Assembly (NCBI RefSeq): GCF_011303555.1
Contig: NZ_CP049868.1
Location: forward strand, 992,001 to 1,056,000
Length of the DNA stretch: 64,000 nucleotides
Reading direction: 5' to 3'
DNA from: Pedobacter sp. HDW13
Lineage (GTDB): Bacteria; Bacteroidota; Bacteroidia; Sphingobacteriales; Sphingobacteriaceae
Part shown: one piece after another, positions 16,049 through 36,496 of the stretch
Position numbering within the stretch: the first letter of the stretch is position 1
Layout: each line of letters opens with the position of its first letter
Position numbers and translations under genes: made by a program
The notes under the pieces: model-generated
The model's database searches: none
What the model was told of the DNA's origin: nothing
What the model saw: only the letters and a program-made list of their open reading frames with translations

Positions 16049-16068
16049 AATTAAAATAAATTAAACAG

Positions 16069-20926: not shown

Positions 20927-23857
20927 ATGAAAAAAAATCAACTTATTTCGCTGGCGATATATGCAATGAGAGTTTCGATTTACCAAATACTTGCAATAGT
21001 AATTTTTACCTGTGCTGCATTCGCTAAAAATGTAGGCGCCCAGGAATTCCTGAATAAACCTATTTCGATCAAAGCCGATCAAACAGATATTAAAACCATT
21101 ATCGAAAAAACCGAGTTGCTTGCAAATGTAAAGTTTGTGTACAGCCCTCAATTAATCAACTCTGACAGGAAAATTTCTGTCAACGTAGTTAACCAAAAAC
21201 TTAAGTACTTTCTTGAGAATTCGCTAAAACGTTATGACGTGGGATATAGGATAGTTAAAGATCAGATTCTGCTCTATTCTATTCCCGCCAATAACAACCT
21301 GGCATTATTAAAGGCTTTTGAAGGTATAGTTACCGGTAAAGTTACCGACAGCAAAGGTAACGCCATCCCTGGAGTATCGGTTACCGTAAAAGGGAAAAGC
21401 ATTGGTACCACAACTGATGAGAATGGTGCTTTTGCATTAAAAGGCCTCACCGTTGATAGCCGCGTACTGGTGGTAAGATATGTAGGTTATATATCTAAAG
21501 AAGTAAACCTATCTGCAGGCAATGCCGATGAAAACCTGAACATCAGTTTATCAGAAGATAACCTGCAGTTGGAAAGTGTGATGGTAACTGGCGGTAACCC
21601 GAAGAAAAAACTGGAAAGTAGCGTGGCCCTTACTTCAGTAAGCAATAAGGATATTACCAACAGGGCACCTTTAAACAGTACTGATTTGTTAAAAGCAATA
21701 CCGGGTTTAACAGTAGAAAGTACAGGTGGCGATGGTCCGGGCAACGTTTGGGTAAGGGGGTTTCCACAGCAAGGCGGTTATATTTTCCTGGGCATTCAGG
21801 AAGATGGACTACCCCTTTTGCCAACAGGCTTCAACACCAACCCATCTGTAGATCAATATTATAAAACAGATTTAACCATTCAGAATATCGAAGCGGTAAG
21901 AGGTGGTAATGCTTCTATTATTCAGGCCAATACCCCAGGCGCAGTGGTTAACAACCTCAGCTACGTTGGTGCCGATAAACAATATGGCCAGTTTAAATTC
22001 ACCACAGGGTTTTCGCAGGGTTTATATCGCTTTGATGGAAATACAGGGGGAAAAATAAACGACCAGATTAAATACAACATCGGTGGTTTTTTCCGTACCG
22101 ATAATGGCGTAGTAGATCAGGGTTTTAATCCGGCCAACCAGGGTGGGCAAATTAAAGGCAACATGACTTTTAATTTTAAAAACCATAAAGGCTTTATCCG
22201 TGTGTATGGTAAATACCTGAACGATAAAGTTCAGTTTTTGTTAACCAGTTACTACCCTTACGATGGTACTGGCAAACCAACTACTTACCGCGATTACGAT
22301 ATGGCTTCACAATCTATCGTTCCACTTCAAACCGAATGGAGTTACAATGATCCGGCAACCGGCAATCACAATTTTAGTTTGACAGATGGTATCCATACCA
22401 AATTAGGATCAGTTGGTTTTCAGTTCAACTACCTGACAGATGGGGGCTGGCAGATTGTTAACAATTTCCGTTACCAAAATACCCATACCAATTCTACTTA
22501 TACCGTTCCGGCCGGAATTGCAGCAAGAACTGCAACAACCCCCTATTATTATCCGGGTGGTACCGTAGCACCATTTGTTACCGGCGATTATGTAATTACT
22601 TCATCGGCCAATGGTCAAATCAATAGTGATGTGCAGATTGTAAATTACTTGGATCTAAAGAAAACTATTAAAAACCATAGTTTAGGTATAGGTGCAGGTA
22701 TTCATCAGTATAACCGCGATGATTTGCGCTATGCTTTCCGCTCGTTCTCAGAATTTAAAGAGCATCCGAGCATCTTATTACAATCGCCAACTGCTGGTGA
22801 ACGAACAATCCAAACCAAAAACACTTTTATTGGCGATACCAGAACATTATCTGCCTATGTTAGTGATGAGATTAAAATTTCGGAGCAGTGGCGTTTAGAT
22901 ATCGGTGCAAGGATCGATAACCAGAACGTAAAAGGCGACAGACCATATTATGCTTTAAATGCAAACGGTACGGTAAACACAACTGCAGCCGCCACCGCAA
23001 CAATATTAGGCTATACCGCTTACGATGAAACCTTAACCAACTGGTCGGCCTCTTTGGGTGCAAACTATAAAATAAACAATACCGCAAGTATTTTTGCAAG
23101 AGCTACAAAAGCTTATAATGCGCCTAACATTGGCGATTATAATGCAGCAGCCTATAATGCGGCGAATATCAAAAAACGCCCTGTTTATTTAGGCGAAGTT
23201 GGTTTTAAATATGCCAAAAACAACCTGGCTATTTTTGCTTCAGGAAGTTACTCGGCCATTAAAAATGTATCTTTAACCATCAATGTGCCAACAACAGCAG
23301 CAGGTACCCAGGCTTTAGTGGCTTTTGGCTCTACCCGTACCTGGAGTGCCGAATATGAAGTATCATACAAAATTGCCAAACCATTAAGCTTACGCTTAAC
23401 CGGAACACTACAGGATTCTAAATACACTGATTACGAAGCATCAACCAAAGGAAATGCAGCGGTACTGGCCGAATTCGGAGATCGTGTTTACAGTTTTACC
23501 GGTAAAAGAACCGAACGTGTTCCGGTTTTAAATACTGAGCTTGGCGCCAATTACGATTATAAAAACTTTAACTTATATGTAGCTGCAAATTATGTAGGCA
23601 GTCGTTTCACCTCGCCAAGCGATAGCTACAGGCTACCTGCCTATGTGGTAATGAAAGCAGGCGCAGGTTATAATTTCACTAAAAAGATTTCAGTAAGATT
23701 TTGGGCAGACAACTTGTTAAATGCAAAAGTGCTGACAGAGGGCGATGTTCGCGGAGACCAATTCAGAGATTTCTCGACCGTAACCCCTGGCACATTAATG
23801 ATTGGCAGAACATTACTTCAACGTACTTTCTGGGGATCATTGGCTTATTCATTCTAA
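20927..23857 (+). CDS. TonB-dependent receptor with STN domain
   Basis: This 976-residue outer-membrane receptor has a long signal region ending near NVGAQ (39), an STN (secretin/TonB short N-terminal) domain at about 45-118, a carboxypeptidase-D-like domain at about 132-205 (VTGKVTDSKGNAIPGVSVTVKG), a plug at about 220-335, and a barrel ending in F (GSLAYSF). The STN domain ties it to the preceding sigma/FecR pair. No SusD gene follows. This and its FecA-like form suggest a small ligand rather than a long glycan. The next gene begins the oxidative sugar cluster, so a glycoside or keto-sugar is a reasonable cargo; siderophore uptake is the main alternative. Confidence 0.92.
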   Translation: MKKNQLISLAIYAMRVSIYQILAIVIFTCAAFAKNVGAQEFLNKPISIKADQTDIKTIIEKTELLANVKFVYSPQLINSDRKISVNVVNQKLKYFLENSLKRYDVGYRIVKDQILLYSIPANNNLALLKAFEGIVTGKVTDSKGNAIPGVSVTVKGKSIGTTTDENGAFALKGLTVDSRVLVVRYVGYISKEVNLSAGNADENLNISLSEDNLQLESVMVTGGNPKKKLESSVALTSVSNKDITNRAPLNSTDLLKAIPGLTVESTGGDGPGNVWVRGFPQQGGYIFLGIQEDGLPLLPTGFNTNPSVDQYYKTDLTIQNIEAVRGGNASIIQANTPGAVVNNLSYVGADKQYGQFKFTTGFSQGLYRFDGNTGGKINDQIKYNIGGFFRTDNGVVDQGFNPANQGGQIKGNMTFNFKNHKGFIRVYGKYLNDKVQFLLTSYYPYDGTGKPTTYRDYDMASQSIVPLQTEWSYNDPATGNHNFSLTDGIHTKLGSVGFQFNYLTDGGWQIVNNFRYQNTHTNSTYTVPAGIAARTATTPYYYPGGTVAPFVTGDYVITSSANGQINSDVQIVNYLDLKKTIKNHSLGIGAGIHQYNRDDLRYAFRSFSEFKEHPSILLQSPTAGERTIQTKNTFIGDTRTLSAYVSDEIKISEQWRLDIGARIDNQNVKGDRPYYALNANGTVNTTAAATATILGYTAYDETLTNWSASLGANYKINNTASIFARATKAYNAPNIGDYNAAAYNAANIKKRPVYLGEVGFKYAKNNLAIFASGSYSAIKNVSLTINVPTTAAGTQALVAFGSTRTWSAEYEVSYKIAKPLSLRLTGTLQDSKYTDYEASTKGNAAVLAEFGDRVYSFTGKRTERVPVLNTELGANYDYKNFNLYVAANYVGSRFTSPSDSYRLPAYVVMKAGAGYNFTKKISVRFWADNLLNAKVLTEGDVRGDQFRDFSTVTPGTLMIGRTLLQRTFWGSLAYSF

Positions 23858-23862: not shown

Positions 23863-23888
23863 AAAACCGGAGTTTACGCTCCGGTTTT
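23863..23888 (+). terminator. Terminator after the TonB receptor gene
   Basis: AAAACCGGAG (23863-23872) pairs perfectly with CTCCGGTTTT (23879-23888), followed by two more T. It separates the sigma/FecR/receptor unit from the oxidative cluster, unless read-through occurs. Confidence 0.9.
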
Positions 23889-23905: not shown

Positions 23906-24811
23906 ATGACAACAAGAAGATCATTTTTACAAAAGGTAAGTTTAGCTGGTGCAGCAGCCTTTTTAAGTCCATCAATTATTACATCGGCTTTAGCCCAACC
24001 CACAAAACTTTCGAAAATCGGCATCGGCCTGTTTACCTTACGTGAACAGTTAACTGCCGACGTTAAAGCAACAATAGCACAAGTAGCTCGCATCGGTTAT
24101 AATCAGGTAGAAACTTATTATGGCTATCCCGGCAAATATGAAGTAAAAGGCTTTTGGGGTTTAGAAGCCAGAGATTTTAATGAACTACTAAAAGCCAATG
24201 GACTCACATCGCCAAGCGGGCATTACAATGTAACCGAATTTCTTTCTACCAGCGACGACAAAGTATTAAAATCGCACATCGAAACCGCAGCGACAGTTGG
24301 CCAGAAATATTTTGTTATCCCTGCCTTACCAACAGATATCAGGGCAAATGGTACATTAGATGATTACAAGCGTATGGCAGCAAAGTTTAACCAGGCTGCA
24401 GAGCTTTGCCAAAAATCGGGTTTAAAATTAGCCTACCACAACCACAACTTCGAGTTTAAAGATCAGGGAAATGGTCTTACAGGCTATGATATTTTATTAA
24501 ATGAAACTGAAGCCAAACTTGTAGGTTTCGAGCTCGATATCTTCTGGGCAGTTAACGCAGGCTTGAACCCTGTTGATATGTTTAAGAAAAATCCAGGCCG
24601 TTATAAAATGTTTCATGTTAAGGATATGGACAAAGAAGATAAGGCCGTATTTACCGAAGTAGGCTCGGGCAGAATAGATTTTAAACCCATTTTTACAGCT
24701 TCAAAACTGGCCGGTGTAGATTATATTTTCACAGAACAAGACCTGATTAAAAAGCCGCCTTTTGAAAGTATTACAGAAAGCTACAATTACATTAAAAAGA
24801 ACCTGCTTTAA
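23906..24811 (+). CDS. Tat-exported sugar phosphate isomerase/epimerase-like TIM barrel (paralogue A)
   Basis: This 301-residue protein has a Tat-type signal (TTRRSFLQK, then a hydrophobic stretch to ALAQ, 31). The rest is a xylose-isomerase-like/AP-endonuclease-2 TIM barrel: IGIGLFTLREQL, VETYYGYPG, SGHYNVTEF, LAYHNHNFEF, FELDIFW, MFHVKDMD and FTEQD. Metal-binding His, Asp and Glu residues in these motifs appear intact. It is a paralogue of the genes at 34696 and 35583. With a Tat signal, its substrate is unlikely to be a sugar phosphate; a keto-glycoside or hydroxyglycal intermediate in the periplasm fits better. Confidence 0.85.
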   Translation: MTTRRSFLQKVSLAGAAAFLSPSIITSALAQPTKLSKIGIGLFTLREQLTADVKATIAQVARIGYNQVETYYGYPGKYEVKGFWGLEARDFNELLKANGLTSPSGHYNVTEFLSTSDDKVLKSHIETAATVGQKYFVIPALPTDIRANGTLDDYKRMAAKFNQAAELCQKSGLKLAYHNHNFEFKDQGNGLTGYDILLNETEAKLVGFELDIFWAVNAGLNPVDMFKKNPGRYKMFHVKDMDKEDKAVFTEVGSGRIDFKPIFTASKLAGVDYIFTEQDLIKKPPFESITESYNYIKKNLL

Positions 24812-25092
24812 ACCCAAAATTTCTGCCGAAATAAAGGCTGTTAACGATTTACTGGTAAATAAGACATTCAATCACACTAAATGTACTTTTTACACCAAGT
24901 AAATTAAGCACAAAAACAGGCTTTAATTAGCATTAAACAAACAAAATCCATATTATTTAGAATAATTATTCGGAGTAACAATAGCGTTGCGTATCAATAA
25001 TTTAACGGTGTAACCTTAACGTTTCCATTATATTTTTTCTAATATTACTCATTCAACACATAACATAACCAATATATAAAACCATAAATACG
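24812..25092. other. Intergenic region before the dehydrogenase operon
   Basis: These 281 bases carry no gene. They are very AT-rich and probably hold the promoter of the following GMC-dehydrogenase operon. I see no TAnnTTTG element, strong hairpin or repeat family member. Confidence 0.5.
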
Positions 25093-25677
25093 ATGCATAG
25101 AAGAGAAGCACTCAAAAACGTTGCATTTTTGCTGGGAGGAGCAATCTCAGCAAGTACAATGGGCGTTTTATTTGAAAGTTTTACGCTCCCGGAAAACGAA
25201 AAAAACTTCGTACAGTATTCTATTGAGGATGAGAAGATTTTTGCTGAATTTGCTGATATCATTGTTCCAACTACCCAGTCATCTGCCGGTGCCAAAGCTG
25301 CCGGATTAGGTAAATTTATACCAATGATGATGAAAGACTGTTATCCTGCTGCCATGCAAACTTCATTCGCAAATGGATTTAAAGCCCTTCAGGCTAAATC
25401 GATGAAAGATTTCGGAAAAAGTTACATCACCTTAACCCTTGCCGACCGCAAAAAGTTAATGACCGATTTAAGAACCATCGCCATTGCACAGAAAGAAACT
25501 AAATCAGAGGAGAACAAAGATTTAGCTTATTTCTTCATTACCGCACGCGATTTAACTTTGCTAGGTTATTACTCATCCGAAATTGGTTGCACCAAAGCAA
25601 GGGCTTACGTTCTTGTTCCAGGCCGTTATGATGGCAATACTACCTTAAAGCCTGGCCAAAAATCGTGGGCTACCTAA
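25093..25677 (+). CDS. Gluconate 2-dehydrogenase subunit 3-family protein (Tat-exported small subunit)
   Basis: This 194-residue protein begins MHRREALKNVAFLLGGAIS, a twin-arginine-type signal with a short hydrophobic core. The body matches the gluconate_2-dh3 family (FAEFADIIVPTTQSSAGAKAAGLGKFI... and YFFITARDLTLLGYYSSEIG). In this family the small subunit carries the Tat signal and takes the flavoprotein partner along through the membrane. The partner GMC gene starts 24 bases downstream. It is the assembly subunit of a periplasmic sugar dehydrogenase such as glucoside 3-dehydrogenase. Confidence 0.88.
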   Translation: MHRREALKNVAFLLGGAISASTMGVLFESFTLPENEKNFVQYSIEDEKIFAEFADIIVPTTQSSAGAKAAGLGKFIPMMMKDCYPAAMQTSFANGFKALQAKSMKDFGKSYITLTLADRKKLMTDLRTIAIAQKETKSEENKDLAYFFITARDLTLLGYYSSEIGCTKARAYVLVPGRYDGNTTLKPGQKSWAT

Positions 25678-25701
25678 CATCAACTACAACGACAAAACAT
25701 C

Positions 25702-27402
25702 ATGAATTTAAATACAAATTTAAAAGCAGAAAATACTTACGATGCTATTGTTATAGGATCGGGGATTAGTGGCGGCTGGGCTGCAAAAGAACTTACCGAA
25801 AAAGGCTTACGCGTTTTAATGCTCGAAAGAGGGATGAACATTGAGCACATCACGGGTTACGAAACCGCAATGAAAAATCCATGGGATTTTAAACATGCTG
25901 GTAAATTAACTGAAGAGCAAAAACGTACCCACCCGGTACAAAAAAGAGATTACCCTTATCAGGAAGCGAACGAAAAATGGTGGGTAAACGATTTGGAATG
26001 CCCTTATACAGAAGATAAACGTTTCGATTGGTACCGTGGTTTCCATGTGGGCGGTAAATCGCTAATGTGGGGCCGTCAGAGTTACCGTTTAAGCGATCAT
26101 AACTTCGAAGATAACGCAAGGGATGGTCACGGAAGTGACTGGCCGGTTCGTTATGCCGAGCTTTCGCCATGGTACGATTATGCCGAGCGTTTTGCAGGCA
26201 TCAGTGGTTCTAACGAAAACTGGCCTACCTGTCCAGATGGGCAGTTTTTACCACCAATGGATTTAAACATTGTAGAAAAATCGGTAAAAGCACGTATAGA
26301 AGAGCACTATAAAAGAGAGCGGATTATGATGATTGGCCGTGTGGCTAACCTTACCGTTCCGCATAAAGGCCGTGGCAATTGCCAGTACAGAAATTTATGC
26401 AGCCGCGGTTGTCCGTTTGGTGCATATTTCAGTACGCAATCTTCTACCCTGCCTGCTGCTATGGCTACTAAACGTTTAACGTTAAGACCATACTCTATTG
26501 TAAACCACATTATTTACGACAAAGACACCAAAAAAGCTAAAGGTGTAATGGTTATTGATGCACAAACCAACAAAACAATGGAGTTTTATGCCAAAATTGT
26601 TTTTGTTAATGGTTCTACTTTAGGTTCTACTTTTATCTTGTTAAACTCTACTTCTGAGGCGCATCCAAATGGTTTGGGTAATGGCAGCGGTCAGTTAGGG
26701 CACAACTTAATGGATCACCACTTCCGTTGTGGTGCATCCGGCGAAGCTGAAGGTTTCGACGATAAATACACCTATGGCCGTCGTGCAAACGGTATTTATA
26801 TCCCAAGGTATCAAAACATCGGAAACGATAAACGCGATTATTTACGTGGTTTCGGTTATCAGGGTGGTGCAAGTAGAAGTAACTGGCAAAATGATGTAGC
26901 CGAGTTATCGTTCGGTGCAGACCTGAAAGAAAAAATGACCAAACCAGGCAAATGGAGCATGGGCTTGGGCGGTTTCGGAGAGATGTTGCCATATTACGAA
27001 AACAAGGTTTACATTGATAAAACCAAAAAAGATAAATGGGGACAGCCGGTATTGGCCATTGATTGCGAATACAAGGAAAACGAGAAAAAAATGCGTACGG
27101 ACATGATGAACGATGCTGCTGAAATGTTAGAAAAAGCAGGCATGAAAAACATCAAAACCTACGATAATGGTTGCTATCCTGGTATGGCCATTCACGAAAT
27201 GGGTACAGCCAGAATGGGTAACGATCCAAAAACATCGGTGCTTAACAAATGGAACCAGATGCATGAGGTGAATAACGTTTTTGTAACCGATGGATCATGT
27301 ATGCCATCTATCGCATGTCAAAACCCATCATTAACATTTATGGCGCTAACCGCACGTGCTGCAGATTACGCAGTAAAAGAATTAAAGAAAAAGAATATCT
27401 AG
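25702..27402 (+). CDS. GMC-family flavoprotein dehydrogenase, probable glucoside 3-dehydrogenase large subunit
   Basis: This 566-residue flavoprotein has the FAD-binding GSGISGG at 19-25, GMC signatures around FHVGGKSLMWGRQSYR, and the C-terminal active-site segment with H498 in IHEMGTARMG and N541 in CQNPSLT. A CQYRNLCSRGCPFGAYF segment adds four cysteines, as in sugar dehydrogenases of the GMC group that pass electrons to cytochromes. It has no signal of its own and should be exported together with the preceding small subunit. With the cytochrome c at 29796 it makes a complete dehydrogenase. The known enzyme type oxidises the C3 hydroxyl of glucosides; substrate here is inferred from the neighbours. 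Confidence 0.88.
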   Translation: MNLNTNLKAENTYDAIVIGSGISGGWAAKELTEKGLRVLMLERGMNIEHITGYETAMKNPWDFKHAGKLTEEQKRTHPVQKRDYPYQEANEKWWVNDLECPYTEDKRFDWYRGFHVGGKSLMWGRQSYRLSDHNFEDNARDGHGSDWPVRYAELSPWYDYAERFAGISGSNENWPTCPDGQFLPPMDLNIVEKSVKARIEEHYKRERIMMIGRVANLTVPHKGRGNCQYRNLCSRGCPFGAYFSTQSSTLPAAMATKRLTLRPYSIVNHIIYDKDTKKAKGVMVIDAQTNKTMEFYAKIVFVNGSTLGSTFILLNSTSEAHPNGLGNGSGQLGHNLMDHHFRCGASGEAEGFDDKYTYGRRANGIYIPRYQNIGNDKRDYLRGFGYQGGASRSNWQNDVAELSFGADLKEKMTKPGKWSMGLGGFGEMLPYYENKVYIDKTKKDKWGQPVLAIDCEYKENEKKMRTDMMNDAAEMLEKAGMKNIKTYDNGCYPGMAIHEMGTARMGNDPKTSVLNKWNQMHEVNNVFVTDGSCMPSIACQNPSLTFMALTARAADYAVKELKKKNI

Positions 27403-27403
27403 A

Positions 27404-27484
27404 AAGGTTTAAGGTGAAAGGTTTAAGGTATAAGGTTAATATCCCTATACCCTAAGCCATTTACCCTATGCCCTATACCTCAAC
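27404..27484. repeat. Degenerate GGTTTAAGGT / CCCTATACC island
   Basis: The 82-base gap holds AAGGTTTAAGGTGAAAGGTT and related GGTATAAGG words, followed by their near-complements CCCTATACCCTAAGCC and CCCTATGCCCTATACC. The halves can fold into a long imperfect hairpin. Confidence 0.6.
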
Positions 27485-28642
27485 ATGAAAAGAAAATTAA
27501 GAATGGGCATGATAGGCGGTGGAAAAGACGCCTTTATTGGTGCCGTACACCGTTTGGCCGCTAATATGGATGGCCTGATTGAATTATCTGCAGGAGCGCT
27601 TAGCATAAACCCCGAAATCGGTTACGAATCAGGAAAAATCCTTTTTCTTCCTGATAACCGCATTTACACCAGTTATGAAGAGATGCTGACAAAAGAAAGC
27701 GAATTGCCAGCTGATGAAAGAATTGACTTTGTAACTATTGTTACCCCAAATTTTGCCCACTTTGCACCAGCAATGATGGCACTGGATAAAGGTTTCAATG
27801 TGGTAATAGAAAAACCAATGACTTTAACTCTAGATGAAGCTAAACAACTGCAGGCTAAAGTAGAGGAAACAGGCCTAACCCTTTGTTTAACCCACACCTA
27901 CTCGGGCTACCCAATGGTTAAGCAAGCCAGGCAAATGGTAAGCGAAGGCGAACTGGGTGCTATCCGCAAAATTGTAGTAGAATATCCTCAAGGCTGGTTA
28001 AGTACACTTTCTGAGCGCGAAGGCAATGCACAGGCAGCTTGGCGTACCGACCCATCTAAAACCGGGAAAAGCGGTTGCATGGGCGATATTGGTACACATG
28101 CAGCGCATCTTGCTGAATACATTTCAGGATTAAAAATCTCTAAAATTTGTGCCGATTTAAACATTGTTGTCCCAGGAAGAGCTATTGATGATGACGGTAA
28201 CGTATTGTTAAAATTCGATAATGGAGCTAACGGCGTATTAGTAGCTTCGCAAATTGCCGCTGGCGAAGAAAATGCATTAAAAATTAGGGTTTATGGCGAA
28301 AAAGGTGGTTTAGAGTGGCACCAGATGGAACCAAATACCCTAATTGTAAGATGGTTAAACGCACCTGCCCAGATTTACAGAACGGGTAATGGCTATATGG
28401 GTAGTTTTGCAAAACACAATACCCGCACACCAGGTGGTCACCCTGAAGGTTATTTAGAAGCATTTGCCAACATTTATAAAAACTTTGCACTTACTGTAGA
28501 TGCAAAATTAAATAACGAGCAACCTACGGCTGAAATGCTTGATTTCCCAGGTACCGCAGATGGTATCAGAGGAATGGCATTTATCGAAAATGTTGTGGCA
28601 TCAGCCCAATCAGATCAAAAATGGTTAGACTATAAACTATAA
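27485..28642 (+). CDS. Gfo/Idh/MocA-family oxidoreductase (cytoplasmic)
   Basis: This 385-residue protein starts MKRKLRMGMIGGGKDAFIG with no signal peptide. A Rossmann NAD(P)-binding domain (about 5-140) with VTPNFAH and the EKPMTL motif (catalytic Lys of the family) is followed by the alpha/beta domain (about 145-380, CMGDIGTHAAHLAEYISGL with the conserved His). It probably oxidises or reduces a sugar carbon, often C3, using NAD. It is paired with the signal-less TIM barrel 9 bases downstream. This pairing is also seen in 3-oxo-glycoside and C-glycoside cleavage systems. Confidence 0.88.
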   Translation: MKRKLRMGMIGGGKDAFIGAVHRLAANMDGLIELSAGALSINPEIGYESGKILFLPDNRIYTSYEEMLTKESELPADERIDFVTIVTPNFAHFAPAMMALDKGFNVVIEKPMTLTLDEAKQLQAKVEETGLTLCLTHTYSGYPMVKQARQMVSEGELGAIRKIVVEYPQGWLSTLSEREGNAQAAWRTDPSKTGKSGCMGDIGTHAAHLAEYISGLKISKICADLNIVVPGRAIDDDGNVLLKFDNGANGVLVASQIAAGEENALKIRVYGEKGGLEWHQMEPNTLIVRWLNAPAQIYRTGNGYMGSFAKHNTRTPGGHPEGYLEAFANIYKNFALTVDAKLNNEQPTAEMLDFPGTADGIRGMAFIENVVASAQSDQKWLDYKL

Positions 28643-28651
28643 CAATTCGGC

Positions 28652-29704
28652 ATGACAACGATAAAAGGACCCGCTGTATTTTTAGCGCAGTTTATAAGCG
28701 ATGAAGCACCGTTTAATACCCTTGATAACATTTGCAAATGGGCTGCTGACTTGGGATTTAAAGGTATCCAGATGCCAACACTGGATGCCCGTTTTATTGA
28801 TCTTAAACAAGCAGCTGAAAGCAAAACCTATGCTGATGAATTAAAAGGCAAAATTGCAACCTACGGCTTAGAGATAACCGAACTATCTACACACTTACAA
28901 GGCCAGTTGGTTGCAGTGCACCCTGCTTACGATGACTTGTTTGATGCCTTTGCACCAAAAGAAGTACACAAAAACCCAAAAGCGAGAACTGAATGGGCCG
29001 TACAACAGATGAAATATGCGGCAAAAGCATCACAAAACCTAGGCTTAAATGCCCATGCTACCTTTAGTGGTTCGCTATTGTGGCAATATTTTCATCCCTG
29101 GCCACAACGCCCTGCAGGTTTGGTAGAAGAAGGCTTTGCCGAACTGGCCAAACGCTGGACACCAATTTTGAACGAATTTGACCAATGTGGTGTAGATGTA
29201 TGCTACGAAATTCATCCTGGCGAAGATTTATTTGACGGAGAAACTTACGAAATGTTCCTTGCAGCAGTAAATAATCACCCTAGGGCATGCTTATTGTATG
29301 ATCCATCACACTTTGTTTTACAGCAGTTAGATTACATTCAGTACATTGATTTTTACCACGAAAGAATTAAAGCCTTTCATGTTAAGGATGCAGAATTTAA
29401 CCCAACAGGTAAACAAGGTACTTTTGGCGGTTACCAAAGCTGGGCAAATCGTGCTGGCCGTTACCGCTCTCCTGGTGATGGACAGGTAGATTTTAAAACC
29501 ATTTTCAGTAAACTGGCACAATACGATTTTAAAGGTTGGGCCGTTATGGAGTGGGAATGCTGCATTAAAAACCAGCAGGATGGTGCACGCGAAGGTGCCG
29601 ATTTTATTAAAAAGAACATTATCAGCGTAACCGATAAAGCATTTGATGATTTTGCTGCATCAGGGAGTGATAGTGCTTTCAATAAAAAAATATTAGGACT
29701 ATAA
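28652..29704 (+). CDS. Sugar phosphate isomerase/epimerase-like TIM barrel (cytoplasmic)
   Basis: This 350-residue TIM barrel of the AP-endonuclease-2 superfamily has no signal peptide. Motifs near the metal site are CYEIHPGEDLFDG, LLYDPSHFVLQQ, FHVKDAEF and AVMEWEC, with Glu, Asp, His and Glu in the expected order. It is longer than the Tat-exported paralogues and clearly diverged from them. It is translationally close to the Gfo/Idh/MocA gene before it (9-base gap). The two likely act in sequence on a keto-sugar taken into the cytoplasm. Confidence 0.85.
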   Translation: MTTIKGPAVFLAQFISDEAPFNTLDNICKWAADLGFKGIQMPTLDARFIDLKQAAESKTYADELKGKIATYGLEITELSTHLQGQLVAVHPAYDDLFDAFAPKEVHKNPKARTEWAVQQMKYAAKASQNLGLNAHATFSGSLLWQYFHPWPQRPAGLVEEGFAELAKRWTPILNEFDQCGVDVCYEIHPGEDLFDGETYEMFLAAVNNHPRACLLYDPSHFVLQQLDYIQYIDFYHERIKAFHVKDAEFNPTGKQGTFGGYQSWANRAGRYRSPGDGQVDFKTIFSKLAQYDFKGWAVMEWECCIKNQQDGAREGADFIKKNIISVTDKAFDDFAASGSDSAFNKKILGL

Positions 29705-29795
29705 CTGTAACAACATGCAATGAAACCTGCATAGGCAAAACAAATTAATATTACCGCTTATGCCAGCTCGAATAAGAATAAAAACAAAACACACA

Positions 29796-30176
29796 ATGAA
29801 AAAAACATTTTTAATTTTAGGCGCTGTAGTCATTTTTATGGCGTCTTTCACGAAAGCAGATTTAGCGAAAGAGAAAAGTGCAATCGCAACAGCAACCATG
29901 GCCAACAGTGCCTTTCAATCACATCCAGGTGAAAAACTAATTAATAAATCTGACTGTTTGGGTTGCCACAACAAAACCAATAAAATTATCGGTCCAGCTT
30001 ATATTGAGGTTGCAAAAAAATACCCGGCTACCGAGAAAAACATTAACATGTTAGCCGATAAAATTATTAAAGGTGGTACCGGAGTTTGGGGCAACATGCC
30101 AATGACTGCACATGCTACTCTTAAAAAAGAAGATGCAAAATTAATGGTAAAATATATTTTGTCCCTGAAAAAATAA
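29796..30176 (+). CDS. Class I c-type cytochrome
   Basis: I place the start at 29796 (MKKTFLILGAVVIFMASF), a clear signal peptide; the open frame extends 12 codons further up without a signal. The mature protein has one haem site C54-L-G-C57-H58 and a probable methionine ligand in GNMPM, as in cytochrome c551/c552. It is 126 residues long. Placed inside the cluster, it is the natural electron acceptor of the GMC dehydrogenase, passing electrons towards a terminal oxidase. Confidence 0.92.
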   Translation: MKKTFLILGAVVIFMASFTKADLAKEKSAIATATMANSAFQSHPGEKLINKSDCLGCHNKTNKIIGPAYIEVAKKYPATEKNINMLADKIIKGGTGVWGNMPMTAHATLKKEDAKLMVKYILSLKK

Positions 30177-30208
30177 TTTAACCTCATCAGCAAATCGATT
30201 TACCTCAT

Positions 30209-31666
30209 ATGAAAACAGAGCAAGAAAATAAAACCACGAGTAACCGTCGTGATTTTATTAAAACAACAGCAATCGCTGCCGCTGCATTTATGATCGTTCC
30301 GCGCCACGTTTTGGGCGGTCCAGGTTATTTGGCACCAAGCGACCGCTTATTGGTTGCCGGTATCGGTGTTGGCGGAAAAGGCCAAAGCGATTTAGATATG
30401 TTTTACAAAAGCGGAAAAGCAGATATTGCCTTTCTATGTGATGTAGACGATCGCCGGGCCGCCAACAGTGTAAAAGCTTTTCCTAAAGCCAAATACTATA
30501 AAGACTGGCGCGAAATGCTGGATAAGGAGCATAAAAACTTCGATGCTGTCTCTGTTTCCACTCCCGATCATAACCATGCTATCCAGGCTTTGGCAGCCAT
30601 GCAACTGGGTAAACATGTGTATGTTCAAAAACCATTAACACACGATATTTACGAGGCCCGCATTTTAACTGCAGCTGCGAAAAAATATCAGGTGGTTACA
30701 CAAATGGGTAATCAAGGTGCATCAAACGATGGGCCGCGCCAAATGAAAGAATGGTACGAAGCTGGTTTAATTGGCGATGTACATACCGTTTACGCATGGA
30801 CCAACCGTCCGGTGTGGCCTCAGGGTATTCCGTGGCCAAGCCAAAAGGCCGAAATTCCGAAAGAATTAGATTGGAATTTATGGCTGGGAACTGCCCCTGA
30901 AAAAGATTTTGTTGATAAACTGGTTCCTTTTAACTGGCGTGGCTGGTGGGATTACGGAACAGGTGCATTGGGCGATATGGGTTGTCACTTAATCGAAGCT
31001 CCTTTTAGTGTATTAAATTTAAAATATGCCAAAGAAGTTGAGGCTAGTGTAGGCTCTGTATATGTGGATGAATTTAAACGCGGTTATTTCCCTGAGAGTT
31101 GTCCTCCATCAAGCCATGTTACCTTAAAATTCCCAAAAACAAATAAAACCAAAGGCGATGTAACCTTACATTGGATGGATGGTGGTATTCAGCCAGAGCG
31201 TCCTGAAGAATTAGAAGCAAACGAAACTTTTGGCGACGGTGGTAACGGTACTTTATTTATCGGTACCAAAGGTAAAATGATGTCTGAAACTTACAGTGCC
31301 AACCCTAAGTTATTGCCTTTAATCAGAAATAACGACATTAAGGTTAAGCCTAAATATGCGCGTGTGCCCGATGGCGCCAATGGCCACTATAAACAATGGG
31401 TAGAAGCAGCAATTGCAGGTTATGGTAAGCAAGAAGTAAGCTCTCCTTTCGAAATTGCCGGTCCGTTAACCGAAGCTTTATTAATGGCCAATCTGGCAAT
31501 CAGAAGCTTCGATATTCAGAAAACCGTAAATGGTAAGGTTACTTACCCGGGCAGATACACCAAAATGCTTTGGGATAACGACAACATGAAGGTAACCAAC
31601 TTTGATGAAGCCAACCAGTTCGTAAAACGCGAATATCGCAAGGGCTGGAATAATTTAACACTTTAA
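30209..31666 (+). CDS. Gfo/Idh/MocA-family oxidoreductase, Tat-exported
   Basis: This 485-residue protein has a Tat signal (SNRRDFIKTTAIAAAAFMIVP). A Rossmann domain (about 45-165, VAGIGVGGKGQSD, VQKPLTHDI) is followed by the substrate domain (GTGALGDMGCHLIEAPF with the conserved His) and a C-terminal part typical of large secreted Bacteroidota members. Export by Tat means it leaves the cytoplasm folded with bound NAD(P), so it probably works with a tightly held cofactor cycling on one substrate. It follows the cytochrome c gene by 32 bases. It is not close to the cytoplasmic homologue at 27485. Confidence 0.9.
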   Translation: MKTEQENKTTSNRRDFIKTTAIAAAAFMIVPRHVLGGPGYLAPSDRLLVAGIGVGGKGQSDLDMFYKSGKADIAFLCDVDDRRAANSVKAFPKAKYYKDWREMLDKEHKNFDAVSVSTPDHNHAIQALAAMQLGKHVYVQKPLTHDIYEARILTAAAKKYQVVTQMGNQGASNDGPRQMKEWYEAGLIGDVHTVYAWTNRPVWPQGIPWPSQKAEIPKELDWNLWLGTAPEKDFVDKLVPFNWRGWWDYGTGALGDMGCHLIEAPFSVLNLKYAKEVEASVGSVYVDEFKRGYFPESCPPSSHVTLKFPKTNKTKGDVTLHWMDGGIQPERPEELEANETFGDGGNGTLFIGTKGKMMSETYSANPKLLPLIRNNDIKVKPKYARVPDGANGHYKQWVEAAIAGYGKQEVSSPFEIAGPLTEALLMANLAIRSFDIQKTVNGKVTYPGRYTKMLWDNDNMKVTNFDEANQFVKREYRKGWNNLTL

Positions 31667-31673
31667 TAATCAC

Positions 31674-31706
31674 AAACCTCATAGGCTTTCTAAACCTATG
31701 AGGTTT
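31674..31706. repeat. AAACCTCATAGG-type dispersed hairpin
   Basis: AAACCTCATAGG (31674-31685) and CCTATGAGGTTT (31695-31706) are perfect 12-base complements. The hairpin lies between two genes of the oxidative cluster and contains an ATG (31698) in frame with the next gene, which I do not take as its start. Confidence 0.75.
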
Positions 31707-31718
31707 AATAAAAAAAAT

Positions 31719-32399
31719 ATGAAAAAAATAATCTTTTCTGCTTGTATCTTATTGGCAGTTACACAAATATCAAAAGCTCAAAAAGGCTTTAAACCGTTGT
31801 TTGATGGTAAAACTACAACCGGCTGGCACACCTATAACAAAACTACTGTAGGCAGCGCCTGGCAGGTACAAGACGGTGCACTGCATTTAGATTTAGCAAC
31901 CAAAGGAAAAGATGGTGGCGGCGATTTAGTTACCGATAAAGAATATGGCGATTACCATTTAAAATATGAGTGGAAAGTTGCACCAAAAGCAAACAGCGGA
32001 CTTATCTTTTATGTACACGAGGAGCCTAAATACCATGCAACCTATTCAACAGGTTTAGAAATGCAGGTAATTGATAACGACGGCCACCCTGATGGTAAAA
32101 TTACCAAACACCGTGCAGGTGATTTGTACGATCTGGTAAAAAGTTCTTCAGAGCCGGTAAAAGCTGTTGGCGAATGGAATAAAGCTGAAATTATTAGTAA
32201 AAAAGGTAAATTAACCTTAATATTAAACGGTGTTGAAGTGGTAAAAACTACCCTTTGGGATGATAGCTGGAAAAACCTTGTAGCAGGCAGTAAATTTGCT
32301 ACATGGGAAAACTGGGGTACTTTCAAAACCGGTAAAATTGCATTGCAAGATCATGGCGATGAAGTTTGGTACAAAAACATCTCTATAAAAGAACTTTAA
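31719..32399 (+). CDS. DUF1080 (3-keto-disaccharide hydrolase) protein
   Basis: With the start at 31719 (MKKIIFSACILLAVTQISKAQ, a signal peptide) it is 226 residues. An upstream in-frame ATG lies inside a hairpin repeat. The whole mature part is one DUF1080 concanavalin-like jelly roll: FKPLFDGKTTTGWH, WQVQDGALHL, GDYHLKYEWKVAPKANSGLIFYV and LEMQVIDNDGHPDG. This family includes hydrolases of 3-keto-glycosides. Its presence beside a GMC sugar dehydrogenase is the strongest local evidence for a 3-keto pathway. It should act in the periplasm. Confidence 0.88.
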   Translation: MKKIIFSACILLAVTQISKAQKGFKPLFDGKTTTGWHTYNKTTVGSAWQVQDGALHLDLATKGKDGGGDLVTDKEYGDYHLKYEWKVAPKANSGLIFYVHEEPKYHATYSTGLEMQVIDNDGHPDGKITKHRAGDLYDLVKSSSEPVKAVGEWNKAEIISKKGKLTLILNGVEVVKTTLWDDSWKNLVAGSKFATWENWGTFKTGKIALQDHGDEVWYKNISIKEL

Positions 32400-32411
32400 A
32401 TAAGGAAAATG

Positions 32412-32455
32412 TAAGAGGGAAAATGTATGATGTGAATTATACATTTTCCCTCTTA
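32412..32455. terminator. Long perfect hairpin after the DUF1080 gene
   Basis: A perfect 17-bp stem (32412-32428 with 32439-32455) has a 10-base loop. It lies 12 bases after the DUF1080 stop; the 3' arm is T/C-rich but no long T-run follows. It may be a weak terminator, a processing site or an mRNA-stabilising 3' structure before the permease gene. Confidence 0.5.
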
Positions 32456-32552
32456 ACAAATCCAGTTCAAATATTATAAACAGTAAGATGTGTTTTAGGA
32501 AACCTTTCCATTATCCATCTTACCTTAACCATTTTACACAATTACTGACCAA

Positions 32553-33794
32553 ATGAATAACACTACTCGCTTTAAACTCTCTGCCATGATGTTCCTGGAA
32601 TTTTTTATCTGGGGCGCCTGGTTTGTTACCCTGGGTACTTTCTTAGGAAATAATTTAAAAGCTTCAGGTGCCGAAACCGGAGCTGTATTTTCTACTCAAT
32701 CATGGGGCGCTATTATTGCCCCTTTCATTGTTGGTTTAATTGCCGACAGATATTTTAACGCCGAGCGCATTTTAGGTGTTTTACACATTGTTGGCGCCAT
32801 ATTAATGTATCAGATGTACAACGCAACCGATGTAAGCGTGTTCTATCCTTACGTTTTGGGTTACATGATCCTTTTCATGCCTACTCTTGCCCTAGTAAAC
32901 TCTGTTTCTTTTAATCAAATGAACGATCCTGAGAAAGAATTTTCTTCTATCCGTATCTGGGGTACCATTGGTTGGATTGCAGCGGGCTTATTAATCAGTT
33001 ACTTTTTCCACTGGGATTCAAAAGAAGGTACCGAAGCAGGTTTGTTGAAAAACACTTTCCTTATGGCAGGTATTGTTTCTTTAGTATTAGGATTATTCAG
33101 TTTCACTTTACCTAAAACGCCACCTAAGGTTTCATCTGATGAAAAAATTACCATTTCTGATGTATTGGGTCTTGATGCCTTAAAACTATTAAAAGACAGA
33201 AACTTCCTGATTTTCTTTATCTCCTCTATATTAATCTGTATTCCACTGGCATTTTATTACCAGAATGCAAACCCGTTCCTTTCTAATATCGGAGTTGATA
33301 ATCCAACTGGTAAAATGACTATTGGTCAGGCTTCAGAAGTACTCTTCCTATTATTTATACCTGTATTTTTTAAACGTTTCGGTTTTAAAATGACCATCTT
33401 GGTAGGCATGCTGGCCTGGGCAGTACGTTATGCCCTGTTTGCATATGGAAACGCCGGCGAACTAAGCTTCATGTTAATTTTAGGTATTGCCTTACACGGG
33501 GTATGCTACGATTTCTTCTTTGTTTCTGGCCAGATTTATACCAACTCTAAAGCGGGTGAAAGATTTAAAAGCTCTGCTCAGGGCTTAATTACTTTGGCGA
33601 CTTACGGTGTGGGTATGTTGATTGGTTTTGCAGTTGCCGGAAAAATATCTGATGCCTATAAAGCAGTAGATGGTACTATGGACTGGAAAATGATCTGGAT
33701 TATCCCTGCTGGTATCGCCTTGGTTGTATTTTTGCTTTTCGCATTAATATTTAACGATAAAACCAAATCAGAAGTAGAAGCTAAAACTGTTTAA
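32553..33794 (+). CDS. MFS permease, nucleoside:H+ symporter (NupG-like) family
   Basis: This 413-residue inner-membrane protein has about 12 hydrophobic segments. MFLEFFIWGAWFVTLGTFL near the start, GLIADRYF and FSSIRIWGTIGWIAAGLLIS are typical of the nucleoside-permease branch of the MFS. In Bacteroidota sugar clusters this branch often lies with isomerase/epimerase and Gfo/Idh/MocA genes. I infer transport of a glycoside or keto-sugar from periplasm to cytoplasm, linking the Tat-exported and cytoplasmic enzymes. The next gene starts one base after its stop. Confidence 0.85.
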   Translation: MNNTTRFKLSAMMFLEFFIWGAWFVTLGTFLGNNLKASGAETGAVFSTQSWGAIIAPFIVGLIADRYFNAERILGVLHIVGAILMYQMYNATDVSVFYPYVLGYMILFMPTLALVNSVSFNQMNDPEKEFSSIRIWGTIGWIAAGLLISYFFHWDSKEGTEAGLLKNTFLMAGIVSLVLGLFSFTLPKTPPKVSSDEKITISDVLGLDALKLLKDRNFLIFFISSILICIPLAFYYQNANPFLSNIGVDNPTGKMTIGQASEVLFLLFIPVFFKRFGFKMTILVGMLAWAVRYALFAYGNAGELSFMLILGIALHGVCYDFFFVSGQIYTNSKAGERFKSSAQGLITLATYGVGMLIGFAVAGKISDAYKAVDGTMDWKMIWIIPAGIALVVFLLFALIFNDKTKSEVEAKTV

Positions 33795-33795
33795 T

Positions 33796-34686
33796 ATGGC
33801 CTCAAACATAAATAGGAGAAATGCATTAAAGAATATCGTTGCAGGTACTGCTGCAATAGGTGTTTCTTCAGGACTATCAGCCCTTGCAATGGATAAATCA
33901 GAATCAAAAGAGCCGTTTAGGCTAAAAGGAAATATTAACCATGCGGTATGTCGCTGGTGTTTTAGTAGCTTCGATGTAGAAGCACTTTGCATCGAAGCAA
34001 AAAAAATTGGCATTAAAGGGATTGACTTAGTTGGTCCGAAAGACTGGCCTACCTTAAAAAAGCACGGTTTAGAATCGACAATGTGCAACGGTGCCGAAAT
34101 TAACCTTGTTGACGGTTTCAACGATGAAAAATTTCACGAAAAGCTCATCAAAAACTATACTGAAATGATTCCTCTTGTAGCGGCAGCCGGTTACAAAAAC
34201 CTGATTTGCTTTAGTGGTAACCGCCGTGGCAAAGACGATGAAACCGGATGGAACAATTGTGTAAAAGGCCTTAAACAGTTAATCCCTTTGGCAGAAAAAC
34301 ACAATGTTGTACTGGTAATGGAGCTTTTAAACAGCAAATTAAACCATAAAGATTACCAATGTGATAGAACCTCGTGGGGTGCTGAACTTTGCAAACGTCT
34401 AGGTTCAGAAAACTTCAAATTGCTTTACGATATTTATCACATGCAGATTGATGAAGGCGATGTAATCAGAAACATCAGGGATTATCACCAGTACATTGCG
34501 CATTATCATACCGCAGGTGTTCCGGGCCGTAATGAAATAGATGATACCCAGGAGTTGTATTACCCTGCCATTATGAAAGCCATTGCCGAAACCGGCTTTA
34601 AAGGTTTCGTTGCACAAGAATTTATACCTAAACAAGCAGATAAAATGGCTTCATTGAAAAAGGCTGTTGCTATCTGCGATATTTAA
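33796..34686 (+). CDS. Hydroxypyruvate isomerase-like TIM barrel, Tat-type signal
   Basis: This 296-residue protein starts MASNINRRNALKNIVAGTAAIG, a twin-arginine-type signal. The body resembles the Hyi/hydroxypyruvate isomerase group: GIKGIDLVGPKDWPTLKKHGL, LVMELLNSK, LLYDIYHMQIDEGDV, HYHTAGVPGRNE and FKGFVAQEFIP. Conserved Glu, Asp, His and Glu of the metal site are in place. It is a different subgroup from the three paralogues A to C. It is almost joined to the permease gene (one-base gap) and precedes paralogue B by 9 bases. The reaction is unknown; true hydroxypyruvate isomerase activity is doubtful outside the cytoplasm. Confidence 0.82.
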   Translation: MASNINRRNALKNIVAGTAAIGVSSGLSALAMDKSESKEPFRLKGNINHAVCRWCFSSFDVEALCIEAKKIGIKGIDLVGPKDWPTLKKHGLESTMCNGAEINLVDGFNDEKFHEKLIKNYTEMIPLVAAAGYKNLICFSGNRRGKDDETGWNNCVKGLKQLIPLAEKHNVVLVMELLNSKLNHKDYQCDRTSWGAELCKRLGSENFKLLYDIYHMQIDEGDVIRNIRDYHQYIAHYHTAGVPGRNEIDDTQELYYPAIMKAIAETGFKGFVAQEFIPKQADKMASLKKAVAICDI

Positions 34687-34695
34687 TCTTACGTT

Positions 34696-35571
34696 ATGAT
34701 ATCAAGAAGAAATTTTATAATAAACAGCAGCATGGCTGCAGCCGCAGCACTTTTGGTTCCATCATTCGTTTTTGCTGCTGCCGATAAAAGAGCGGTTGGC
34801 TTGCAGCTGTACTCTTTAAGAGATGAATTACCAAAAGATGTAAAAGGAACAATCGCAAAAATTGCAAAAGCTGGCTTCAAAGAAGTAGAAACCTATGGTT
34901 TTTCTATCAAAGATCAGTTTTGGGGTTTAACACCTGCACAATTTAAAAAACTGCTTGATGATAATGGATTAAAAGCTCCTAGTGGTCATTATGGTTTAGG
35001 CAGTTATTTAAACGATGGCAACACCACCGAGTTAAAAGCAGCCATTGCAGCAGCTAAAGTACTTAAAAGCGAGTATGTAACCATTCCCTGGTTAGATTCG
35101 GGTATCAGAAAAAATGCCGAAGATTACAAGAAAATTGCGGCAAGAATAAACGAAGCAGGTAAAATGTGTAAAGCAGCCGGTATCCGTTTGGCTTACCATA
35201 ACCACAATTTCGAATTTGAGAAAATTGGTGATACTACTGGTTACGAAATTTTATTAAAAGGTACCGATAAAAAATTAGTCGATTTCGAACTTGATTTGTA
35301 TTGGGTGGTACGCTCAGGAAACGATCCTATAAAATTGTTTAAAGAAAACCCAGGTCGTTTTACCATGTGGCATGTTAAAGATATGGATAAAGCCAACCCG
35401 GCCCTAAATGCTGAGGTAGGTACTGGTGCCATTAATTTTAAACCGATTTTTGCCCAGGCAAAACTTTCGGGCATGAAACATTTCTTTGTAGAGCACGAAA
35501 CCAATTACAAACCAAACCCAATGGCCTCTGTTGCAGCTAGCTGCGCTTATATTAAAAAGGAAATTATTTAA
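34696..35571 (+). CDS. Tat-exported isomerase/epimerase-like TIM barrel (paralogue B)
   Basis: This 291-residue protein has a SRRNFIINSSMAAAAALLVP signal. The barrel shows VGLQLYSLRDELPKDVKG, VETYGFSIKDQFWGL, APSGHYGL, LAYHNHNFEFEKIG, FELDLYWVVRSGNDP, MWHVKDMDK and FVEHETNYKPNP. It is a tandem duplicate of paralogue C (11-base gap) and a more distant relative of paralogue A at 23906. All motifs are intact, so each copy is probably active. Role as for paralogue A. Confidence 0.85.
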   Translation: MISRRNFIINSSMAAAAALLVPSFVFAAADKRAVGLQLYSLRDELPKDVKGTIAKIAKAGFKEVETYGFSIKDQFWGLTPAQFKKLLDDNGLKAPSGHYGLGSYLNDGNTTELKAAIAAAKVLKSEYVTIPWLDSGIRKNAEDYKKIAARINEAGKMCKAAGIRLAYHNHNFEFEKIGDTTGYEILLKGTDKKLVDFELDLYWVVRSGNDPIKLFKENPGRFTMWHVKDMDKANPALNAEVGTGAINFKPIFAQAKLSGMKHFFVEHETNYKPNPMASVAASCAYIKKEII

Positions 35572-35582
35572 TCTTTTAAGAG

Positions 35583-36452
35583 ATGAATTCAAGAAGAACA
35601 TTCTTAAAACAAGCAGGATTAGCTGCCGGAGCAGCATTACTGATCCCCTCTTTCGCATTCGATAAACCAAAGAAAAATATTGGTTTACAACTTTATACCT
35701 TGCGCGATGAATTACCAAAAGATGTAAAAGGTGTTATCGAAAAGGTAGCACAAGCCGGATACAAAGAAGTAGAAACCTATGGTTTCTCTAACGGTAAATT
35801 CTGGGGTTTAACACCAAAAGAATTTAAAGCCCTGTTAGATGCAAACGGCTTAAAAGCACCAAGCGGCCACTACGGTATGGACGATTTTGTAAGAACCGGA
35901 AAAACCGACAAATTAAAAGCCGATATCGAATCATCGGCAGCTATTGGTGGTAAATATTTTACCATCGCAGGGGCACATGTTGATACCAGCAAAGGCGCAG
36001 ACGGTTTCAAAAAAACTGCCGAAAACTTTAACAAGGTTGCCGAAATTGCCAAAGCATCTGGCTTAAAATTTGCCTACCACAACCACGATTTCGAATTTAA
36101 AAAAATAGGCGACATTACCGGTTATGATGTTTATTTAAGCGAAACCGACAAAAACCTGGTTAATTTCGAAATGGATTTGTACTGGGTAGTACGCTCGGGT
36201 AACGATCCCCTGGCTTTGTTTAAAAAATATCCTGGCCGTTTCCCAATGTGGCACGTAAAAGATATGGATAAAACCAAACGAGAGTGGAATACCGAAGTTG
36301 GAAATGGTTCAATTGATTTTAAAACCATCTTTGCCCAAGCCAAACTTTCGGGTATGCAGCATTTCTTTGTTGAGCACGAAACCAATTACAAACCCGATCC
36401 AATCGGTTCTATCAAAACAAGTTGCGATTATATAAAAGCAAATTTGGTATAG
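35583..36452 (+). CDS. Tat-exported isomerase/epimerase-like TIM barrel (paralogue C)
   Basis: This 289-residue protein has the signal NSRRTFLKQAGLAAGAALLIP. The same barrel motifs as paralogue B recur with small changes (IGLQLYTLRDELPKDVKG, FWGLTPKEFKALLD, LKFAYHNHDFEFKKIG, FEMDLYWVVRSGNDP, FVEHETNYKPDP). B and C are much closer to each other than to A, consistent with recent local duplication. It is the last gene of the cluster and is followed by a strong terminator. Confidence 0.85.
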   Translation: MNSRRTFLKQAGLAAGAALLIPSFAFDKPKKNIGLQLYTLRDELPKDVKGVIEKVAQAGYKEVETYGFSNGKFWGLTPKEFKALLDANGLKAPSGHYGMDDFVRTGKTDKLKADIESSAAIGGKYFTIAGAHVDTSKGADGFKKTAENFNKVAEIAKASGLKFAYHNHDFEFKKIGDITGYDVYLSETDKNLVNFEMDLYWVVRSGNDPLALFKKYPGRFPMWHVKDMDKTKREWNTEVGNGSIDFKTIFAQAKLSGMQHFFVEHETNYKPDPIGSIKTSCDYIKANLV

Positions 36453-36459
36453 TTTACTA

Positions 36460-36496
36460 AAACCCCGCAGATCTAAAACCTGCGGGGTTTTCTTTT
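36460..36496 (+). terminator. Terminator of the oxidative cluster
   Basis: An 11-bp stem (36460-36470 with 36480-36490, core CCCCGCAG/CTGCGGGG) is followed by TCTTTT. It lies 8 bases after the last cluster gene. Confidence 0.92.

Follow-up and report, generated by a model that had tools for sequence, protein, structure and literature searches.

We analysed a window of 64,000 nucleotides from Pedobacter sp. HDW13 (contig NZ_CP049868.1, positions 992,001 to 1,056,000), in which twelve open reading frames at 23906-36452, all on the + strand, probably encode a Bacteroidota version of an oxidative route of glycoside breakdown known from other bacteria, divided between the two sides of the inner membrane. 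In a Pfam search, each of the stated families was found above its cut-off: five TIM barrels of PF01261 (TIM1 to TIM5), a PF13618 protein (Sub3), a GMC dehydrogenase with the N and C domains, two Gfo/Idh/MocA enzymes (GfoA and GfoB), a cytochrome c, a DUF1080 protein (PF06439), and a nucleoside/H+ symporter-type permease. The genes stand in the following order; signals of the twin-arginine translocation (Tat) type are predicted, and Sec-like leaders were read by eye.

23906-24811, + strand: TIM1, Tat-signal TIM barrel, predicted accessory 3-keto-glycoside lyase (PF01261; matches 8TCD and 8BVK)
25093-25677, + strand: Sub3, gluconate-2-dehydrogenase subunit 3 family (LacC-like), Tat-like signal (PF13618)
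25702-27402, + strand: GMC dehydrogenase (LacA/GlycDH-like), predicted glycoside 3-dehydrogenase (GMC domains)
27485-28642, + strand: GfoA, Gfo/Idh/MocA oxidoreductase without a signal, predicted cytoplasmic 3-keto-glucose reductase
28652-29704, + strand: TIM2, 2-hydroxy-3-keto-glucal hydratase-like, without a signal (match to 8RO4)
29760-30176, + strand: cytochrome c (LacB-like), Sec-like leader (PF00034)
30209-31666, + strand: GfoB, Tat-signal Gfo/Idh/MocA enzyme related to the BT_2158 glycoside 3-dehydrogenases (matches 8TDF and 8TDH)
31698-32399, + strand: DUF1080 / 3-keto-disaccharide hydrolase family, Sec-like leader (PF06439, 175 bits)
32553-33794, + strand: NupG-like permease of the major facilitator superfamily, predicted importer of the cleaved sugar (PF03825, 402 bits)
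33796-34686, + strand: TIM3, Tat-signal hydroxypyruvate-isomerase/epimerase-like barrel (E176-D212-H238-E275)
34696-35571, + strand: TIM4, Tat-signal predicted 3-keto-glycoside lyase
35583-36452, + strand: TIM5, Tat-signal predicted 3-keto-glycoside lyase, paralogue of TIM4 (matches 8TCT, 8TCD and 8BVK)
36459-36491, + strand: intrinsic terminator 3' of TIM5 (12-bp stem, 9-base loop, T-rich tail)

The intergenic gaps do not exceed 82 bp (9 bp between GfoA and TIM2), save for 281 bp 3' of TIM1 and 153 bp 5' of the permease gene. The stretch containing the terminator folded at -19.9 kcal/mol; a consensus scan had overlooked it because the loop limit of the scan was 8. The Pfam search and the hairpin folding confirmed what an earlier note, made from the sequence alone, had described as twelve one-strand genes of these families followed by a strong terminator. 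A scan of seven gaps for Bacteroidota-type promoters gave only matches with two mismatches, which leaves the division into transcription units tentative.

When named genomes were scanned for GMC relatives, with genomes very close to the window's own possibly left out, at least 596 were found, and the loci of the best 80 were kept. As these loci were picked by GMC similarity, the counts speak for gene order and not for frequency. Among window-related genes, the order Sub3-GMC-GfoA-TIM2-cytochrome c-GfoB-DUF1080-permease was held in 61 of the 80 loci. Its first four genes opened the order in 67, with TIM3 further along in 54 of these, and GfoA adjoined TIM2 in all 67 loci holding both. The other 13 loci comprised six with only TIM3, GMC and Sub3 of the set (two labelled as Saprospiraceae, two unplaced Bacteroidota, one Thermoflavifilum and one Thermoanaerobaculia), one with TIM3-GMC, and six others, some of them on short contigs. 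A second set of loci was collected through TIM2, a relative of which (E <= 1e-60) is encoded in 93 of 121 genomes and 19 of 25 genera of the window's family, Sphingobacteriaceae; 80 of the 94 matches were fetched, all outside the window's genus. GfoA was present in 67 of these family loci and was the same-strand neighbour of TIM2 in 63 of them. Conservation of gene order, for which the earlier note had proposed to search, was thus found both for the eight-gene run and for the GfoA-TIM2 pair, and the order exceeds chance. GMC was present in 43 of the 80 family loci; TIM3 accompanied it in 37 of them and occurred in 2 of the 37 loci that lack it. Of the 43 loci with GMC, 37 also hold Sub3, 31 GfoB and 26 DUF1080.

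Judged by sequence, the five TIM barrels can be assigned to three classes: lyase (TIM1, TIM4 and TIM5), hydratase (TIM2) and isomerase/epimerase-like (TIM3). TIM2 matched 8RO4, by name a 2-hydroxy-3-keto-glucal hydratase, over its whole length (residues 1-350, 570 bits, E 2.2e-170). TIM5 and TIM1 matched 8TCT, 8TCD, 8TCS and 8BVK, the last of which occurs three times in PMC10628242 and was taken as the structure of the Agrobacterium tumefaciens O-glycoside eliminase, AtOGE. The metal ligands of AtOGE are His132, Asp163, His189 and, weakly, Glu233, and His134 is needed for catalysis (PMC10628242). The comparison with this site was made through a lyase of Rhizobium beringeri, which is 29% identical to TIM5, and not with AtOGE directly. 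H125, H127, D156, H182 and E227 of the Rhizobium lyase, numbered 7, 7, 7, 7 and 6 below those AtOGE residues, align with H166, H168, D198, H224 and E264 of TIM5. These five, together with H96 and E196, are invariant in 103 of 103 aligned TIM1, TIM4 and TIM5 sequences, and all seven align in order with Rhizobium residues numbered 6-7 below their AtOGE counterparts (His66, His132, catalytic His134, Glu161, Asp163, His189 and Glu233). By this alignment, the residues with which the eliminase binds its metal and catalyses are retained in TIM1, TIM4 and TIM5. In a tree (53 of 102 aligned sequences), the three window proteins fell into three separate supported clades of one lyase family, and TIM4 and TIM5 are 60% identical. 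The idea that five TIM barrels mean five steps was rejected for this reason: the barrels pointed out by the earlier note are indeed five in number, but they are partly paralogues (TIM4 and TIM5), and TIM1 is an accessory.

In TIM3, a glutamate (E176) replaces the strand-5 His-Asn-His of the lyases, as read by eye, and E176, D212, H238 and E275 are conserved in 62 of 62 aligned sequences. Its best curated matches were hydroxypyruvate isomerase and 2-oxo-tetronate isomerase, both far below the cut-off (for TIGR03234, hydroxypyruvate isomerase, 95 bits against 353.45). The fold of TIM3, modelled from 35 sequences with a mean predicted local distance difference test score of 81 and low confidence at residues 1-38, is common to 3NGF/1K77, YcjR and ketose 3-epimerases, and the comparison singles out no one reaction. 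E. coli YcjR is a 3-keto-D-glucoside 4-epimerase (6WN6; PMC11543891). The neighbourhoods of TIM3 relatives were viewed in 60 of 75 matches in the phylum, the omitted ones being six of the window's own family and nine from the weaker end. A GMC gene lay near TIM3 in just 23 of the 60, which weakened the candidate role of TIM3 as a dedicated partner of GMC. In the 37 loci without GMC, the neighbours shared most widely among the top 14 families were a Gfo enzyme and a further TIM barrel of the Tat type (7 of 37).

In the GMC protein, C227-x5-C233-x3-C237 as well as His498 and Asn541 are invariant in 83 of 83 aligned sequences. Its nearest solved relatives are a glucose dehydrogenase and the large subunit of a fructose dehydrogenase, in which such cysteines hold a 3Fe-4S cluster. 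The arginine pair R3 R4 of Sub3 was present in 79 of 79 aligned sequences, and Sub3 is predicted to carry GMC across the membrane. Cytochrome c, which keeps its CxxCH motif (C66, C69 and H70) in 62 of 62 aligned sequences, is likely the electron exit; flavin adenine dinucleotide would hand electrons to an iron-sulphur cluster bound by the three invariant GMC cysteines, which would pass them to cytochrome c. GfoA is 46% identical to the Gfo protein that adjoins the hydratase in R. beringeri. GfoB scored 483 bits with NF058561, the model of the BT_2158 glycoside 3-dehydrogenase, the cut-off of which is 750.

Proteins with and without a predicted export signal formed two groups. A Tat-like arginine pair (RR) was present in the relatives of TIM1 (17/17), Sub3 (77/78), GfoB (67/68), TIM3 (61/61), TIM4 (51/53) and TIM5 (30/30) from the named loci, and in none of those of GfoA (0/67), TIM2 (0/67) and GMC (0/82). 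A looser count in other genera, in which any RR within 50 residues was accepted, gave the same split: TIM3 34/39, TIM4 23/23, TIM5 23/24, GfoB 34/34 and Sub3 48/48 on one side, and TIM2 1/80, GfoA 4/69 and GMC 0/56 on the other. With the lyases predicted to be exported and the hydratase and reductase devoid of a signal, the cleaved sugar would enter the cell through the NupG-like permease.

Taken together, we consider it reasonably probable that the cluster encodes a two-compartment oxidative glycoside pathway operating across the inner membrane. All its reactions are inferences, as are the identity of the imported molecule and what TIM3 and GfoB do. In the predicted scheme, the dehydrogenase made up of GMC, Sub3 and cytochrome c works in the periplasm and oxidises C3 of glycosides, and the resulting 3-keto-glycoside would be cleaved there through elimination by the Tat-signal lyases (and DUF1080). 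The permease would take 2-hydroxy-3-keto-glucal inward, and TIM2 and GfoA would convert the imported sugar to glucose. TIM3 may be an exported isomerase or epimerase acting on 3-keto sugars at C4 or C2, beside the keto group, which would broaden the range of substrates, and GfoB with DUF1080 may open another, Bacteroides-type entry in the periplasm. The substrates are likely plant-type glycosides. The proposal of the earlier note that the cluster breaks down glycosides oxidatively through 3-keto forms and brings along an electron exit and a permease is well supported, with the lyase, hydratase and isomerase classes completing the steps. A more specific scheme can be offered only tentatively: in soil and freshwater Bacteroidota, glycosides may be cut in the periplasm, the reactive enone 2-hydroxy-3-keto-glucal may itself be what a dedicated NupG-family permease imports, and TIM3 may funnel gluco-, galacto- and gulo-configured 3-keto-hexosides into it.

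Several observations weigh against the two-compartment pathway. The permease is absent from 10 of the 43 GMC-bearing family loci, and 13 of the 80 family loci have a TIM2 relative without GfoA. Moreover, in 31 of the 80, TIM2 stands without GMC, Sub3, TIM3, permease, lyase or GfoB nearby, an absence that holds within the fetched stretch, with short contigs in a few cases. The hydratase, in 20 of these 31 together with the GfoA reductase, is thus a separable module. The signal calls come from the RR pattern and reading by eye, not from a trained predictor. In the passages of Price et al. (PMC9007349) drawn on here, the DUF1080 genes of the Pedobacter strain studied there had no phenotype on lactose, and, in those of PMC11501099, deletion of BT2157 or BT2158 did not impair the growth of B. 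thetaiotaomicron on raffinose-family sugars. A Bacteroides lyase is reported to have hydration activity as well (PMC13273386), and TIM4 and TIM5 might by analogy finish the hydration outside, with 3-keto-glucose being imported. With cutting by the lyases outside and hydration by the hydratase inside, the glucal is the expected crossing molecule; with lyases that hydrate as well, 3-keto-glucose is. Either would need a carrier.

TIM2 relatives without GfoA at three family loci (L142, L149 and L163; 72-74% identical) lie beside genes that by eye resemble those of xylulokinase and xylose isomerase, where the hydratase family may have another use.

Instead of elimination, hydrolysis could be the main cutting step: DUF1080 would cut the 3-keto-glycosides made by the dehydrogenase in the periplasm, the TIM barrels and Gfo enzymes would be epimerases and reductases that do no more than process the 3-keto-hexose set free, and the lyase/hydratase route would be minor. 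Price et al. interpreted the Caulobacter cluster in this way (PMC9007349), and the place of DUF1080 within the conserved run agrees with it. However, it leaves a clear hydratase relative and the eliminase residues of TIM1, TIM4 and TIM5 without work, and DUF1080 is absent from 17 of the 43 GMC-bearing family loci, though it may lie elsewhere (the window's own genome has 12 PF06439 matches); we regard it as unlikely. Alternatively, the operon might combine two pathways for different substrates, one GMC- and cytochrome-linked and the other of the Bacteroides type, in which GfoB and DUF1080 would use bound NAD and trade hydride between sugars. GfoB is indeed closest to the BT_2158 family and to 8TDF/8TDH, and the unequal presence of Sub3, GfoB and DUF1080 beside GMC in the family loci would fit such a division, but the position of GfoB and DUF1080 inside one run conserved in 61 of 80 named loci points to joint use and makes this reading rather improbable. 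Catabolism of inositol or another cyclitol or polyol with IolG/IolE-like enzymes, suggested by weak model matches, was rejected as most improbable, as the IolE scores (TIGR04379; TIM1 58, TIM2 72, TIM4 48 and TIM5 53 bits) and the IolG scores (54-58 bits) lie far under the curated cut-offs of 290 and 355, and we know of no place for GMC, Sub3 and DUF1080 in the inositol pathway.

The two-compartment pathway we favour has close published counterparts. The four-enzyme pathway of A. tumefaciens consists of GlycDH, AtOGE, AtHYD and Oxo, with the hydratase evidence for AtHYD called preliminary (PMC10628242). The window cluster shares with it the GMC dehydrogenase with a Tat partner, the eliminase, the hydratase and the Gfo reductase, in the same order of chemistry (PMC10628242); by sequence, the GMC with its Tat-signal Sub3, the eliminase site, the hydratase, and a Gfo reductase beside the hydratase are all found in the window. 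It differs in having three Tat-like lyase copies and a NupG-like permease, as well as an added cytochrome c, DUF1080, GfoB and TIM3. In Rhizobium, the eliminase relative has no leader, its gene adjoins those of the hydratase and of an ATP-binding cassette importer, while the alignment of AtOGE already begins at its own residue 9. Since the three window lyases and most of their relatives bear a Tat-like RR and are not signal-less, the cluster is a variant and not the same arrangement.

Pedobacter GW460-11-11-14-LB5, listed with a TIM3 92% identical to that of the window, presumably holds its lacABC in the same gene order as the window cluster. Its putative lactose dehydrogenase plays an important part when the strain grows on glycosides, lactose and salicin among them, and the lacABC of Caulobacter has lactose and salicin phenotypes (PMC9007349). 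As in those systems, the GMC, subunit 3, cytochrome c and DUF1080 genes of the window form one cluster; the parts of PMC9007349 used here leave the fate of the keto sugar open and call the TIM barrels epimerases, whereas we assign lyase and hydratase classes to them. A related levoglucosan route is covered in PMC10066097. In the 3-keto pathway of Bacteroides thetaiotaomicron BT2156-BT2160, a periplasmic glycoside 3-dehydrogenase of the GfoB kind (PMC11300592, PMC11501099) and a DUF1080 3-ketotrehalose hydrolase (PMC9007349) are the counterparts of the window's GfoB and DUF1080 proteins. GfoB nevertheless falls short of the score that the BT_2158 model asks. The BT2156-BT2160 pathway includes a TIM-barrel lyase and, to our knowledge, has no GMC/cytochrome c exit.

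The suggestion of the earlier note that the set may be undescribed was not supported as a novelty of the pathway, given that its four steps and families are published for Agrobacterium (PMC10628242) and that lactose-dehydrogenase and DUF1080 clusters with dehydrogenase mutant phenotypes are known from Caulobacter and a Pedobacter strain (PMC9007349). With Tat-like signals on the lyases, TIM3, Sub3 and one Gfo enzyme and none on the hydratase and reductase, the difference from the published pathways is one of compartment, and the arrangement on two sides of the membrane looks like a separate version of known chemistry. Among the papers listed in our literature searches, none describes such a division between compartments or an import of the glucal, which, given variant compound spellings and listings of 15-30 out of hundreds of matches in several searches, is no proof of absence; relative to the searched literature, what is new is the layout and two roles, those of TIM3 and of the transport step.

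TIM1 stands apart from the rest of the cluster. Upstream of it lie the following features.

19044-19604, + strand: ECF-type sigma factor (Sigma70 r2 and r4_2 above cut-off)
19711-20733, + strand: FecR-type anti-sigma/transducer (FecR and FecR_C above cut-off)
20927-23857, + strand: TonB-dependent receptor (plug and barrel domains)
23863-23888, + strand: terminator-like hairpin between the receptor and TIM1

TIM1 was found in 17 of the 80 named loci, and in 16 of these a TonB receptor precedes it; it is an accessory copy that travels with the receptor. These counts and the 281-bp gap place TIM1 with the ECF sigma-FecR-TonB unit, which probably drives the receptor and TIM1. Further 5', at 11662-16848, are GH43-type, GH3-type and esterase-like genes, and a supply of glycosides from there is possible. 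The window's genome also holds one further GMC/Sub3 pair, in that order (L001, G000:C1:1350515-1350895); with it and the 12 PF06439 matches, single deletions may be masked.

Within otherwise syntenic named loci, the permease occurs in two classes, 57-58% (L008, L017, L034, L035, L037, L039, L072 and L078) or 68-95% (the other loci) identical to the window's, which suggests transporter replacement. The strain from which glucoside 3-dehydrogenase is classically known, Flavobacterium saccharophilum DSM 1811, carries the core, Sub3 through TIM4 (L030). The Thermoanaerobaculia-labelled contig (L070) has TIM3-GMC-Sub3 and an upstream gene that by eye resembles that of a Saprospiraceae locus (L080); the contig is perhaps mis-binned. 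A near-complete version lies on a Hymenobacter volaticus plasmid (L247 4077-13390), 3' of a SusD-type gene and a GH65 gene, in the order GMC-Sub3-permease-Gfo-hydratase-cytochrome c, with the permease directly 5' of Gfo-hydratase. A Croceicoccus marinus plasmid (L249 3978-12378) has Gfo-hydratase-Sub3-GMC close to a TIM barrel and DUF6379 pair, which we take to resemble C-glycoside lyase subunits, and is a possible hybrid C-/O-glycoside locus. A hydratase relative (E <= 1e-80) is encoded by 309 plasmid records, 54 of them from Pantoea, and two Klebsiella pneumoniae plasmids are among the 40 matches listed from the plasmid collection.

If the funnel and the glucal import are true, one cytoplasmic hydratase-reductase pair would serve many glycosides. 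The two-compartment pathway as such would explain how aerobic Bacteroidota can live on glycosides of widely differing kinds even when they lack a fitting hydrolase for every one. Likely functions can be given to genes publicly named just 'sugar phosphate isomerase', and two questions are opened to direct test: the identity of the keto sugar that crosses the inner membrane, and the role of the exported TIM3 family.

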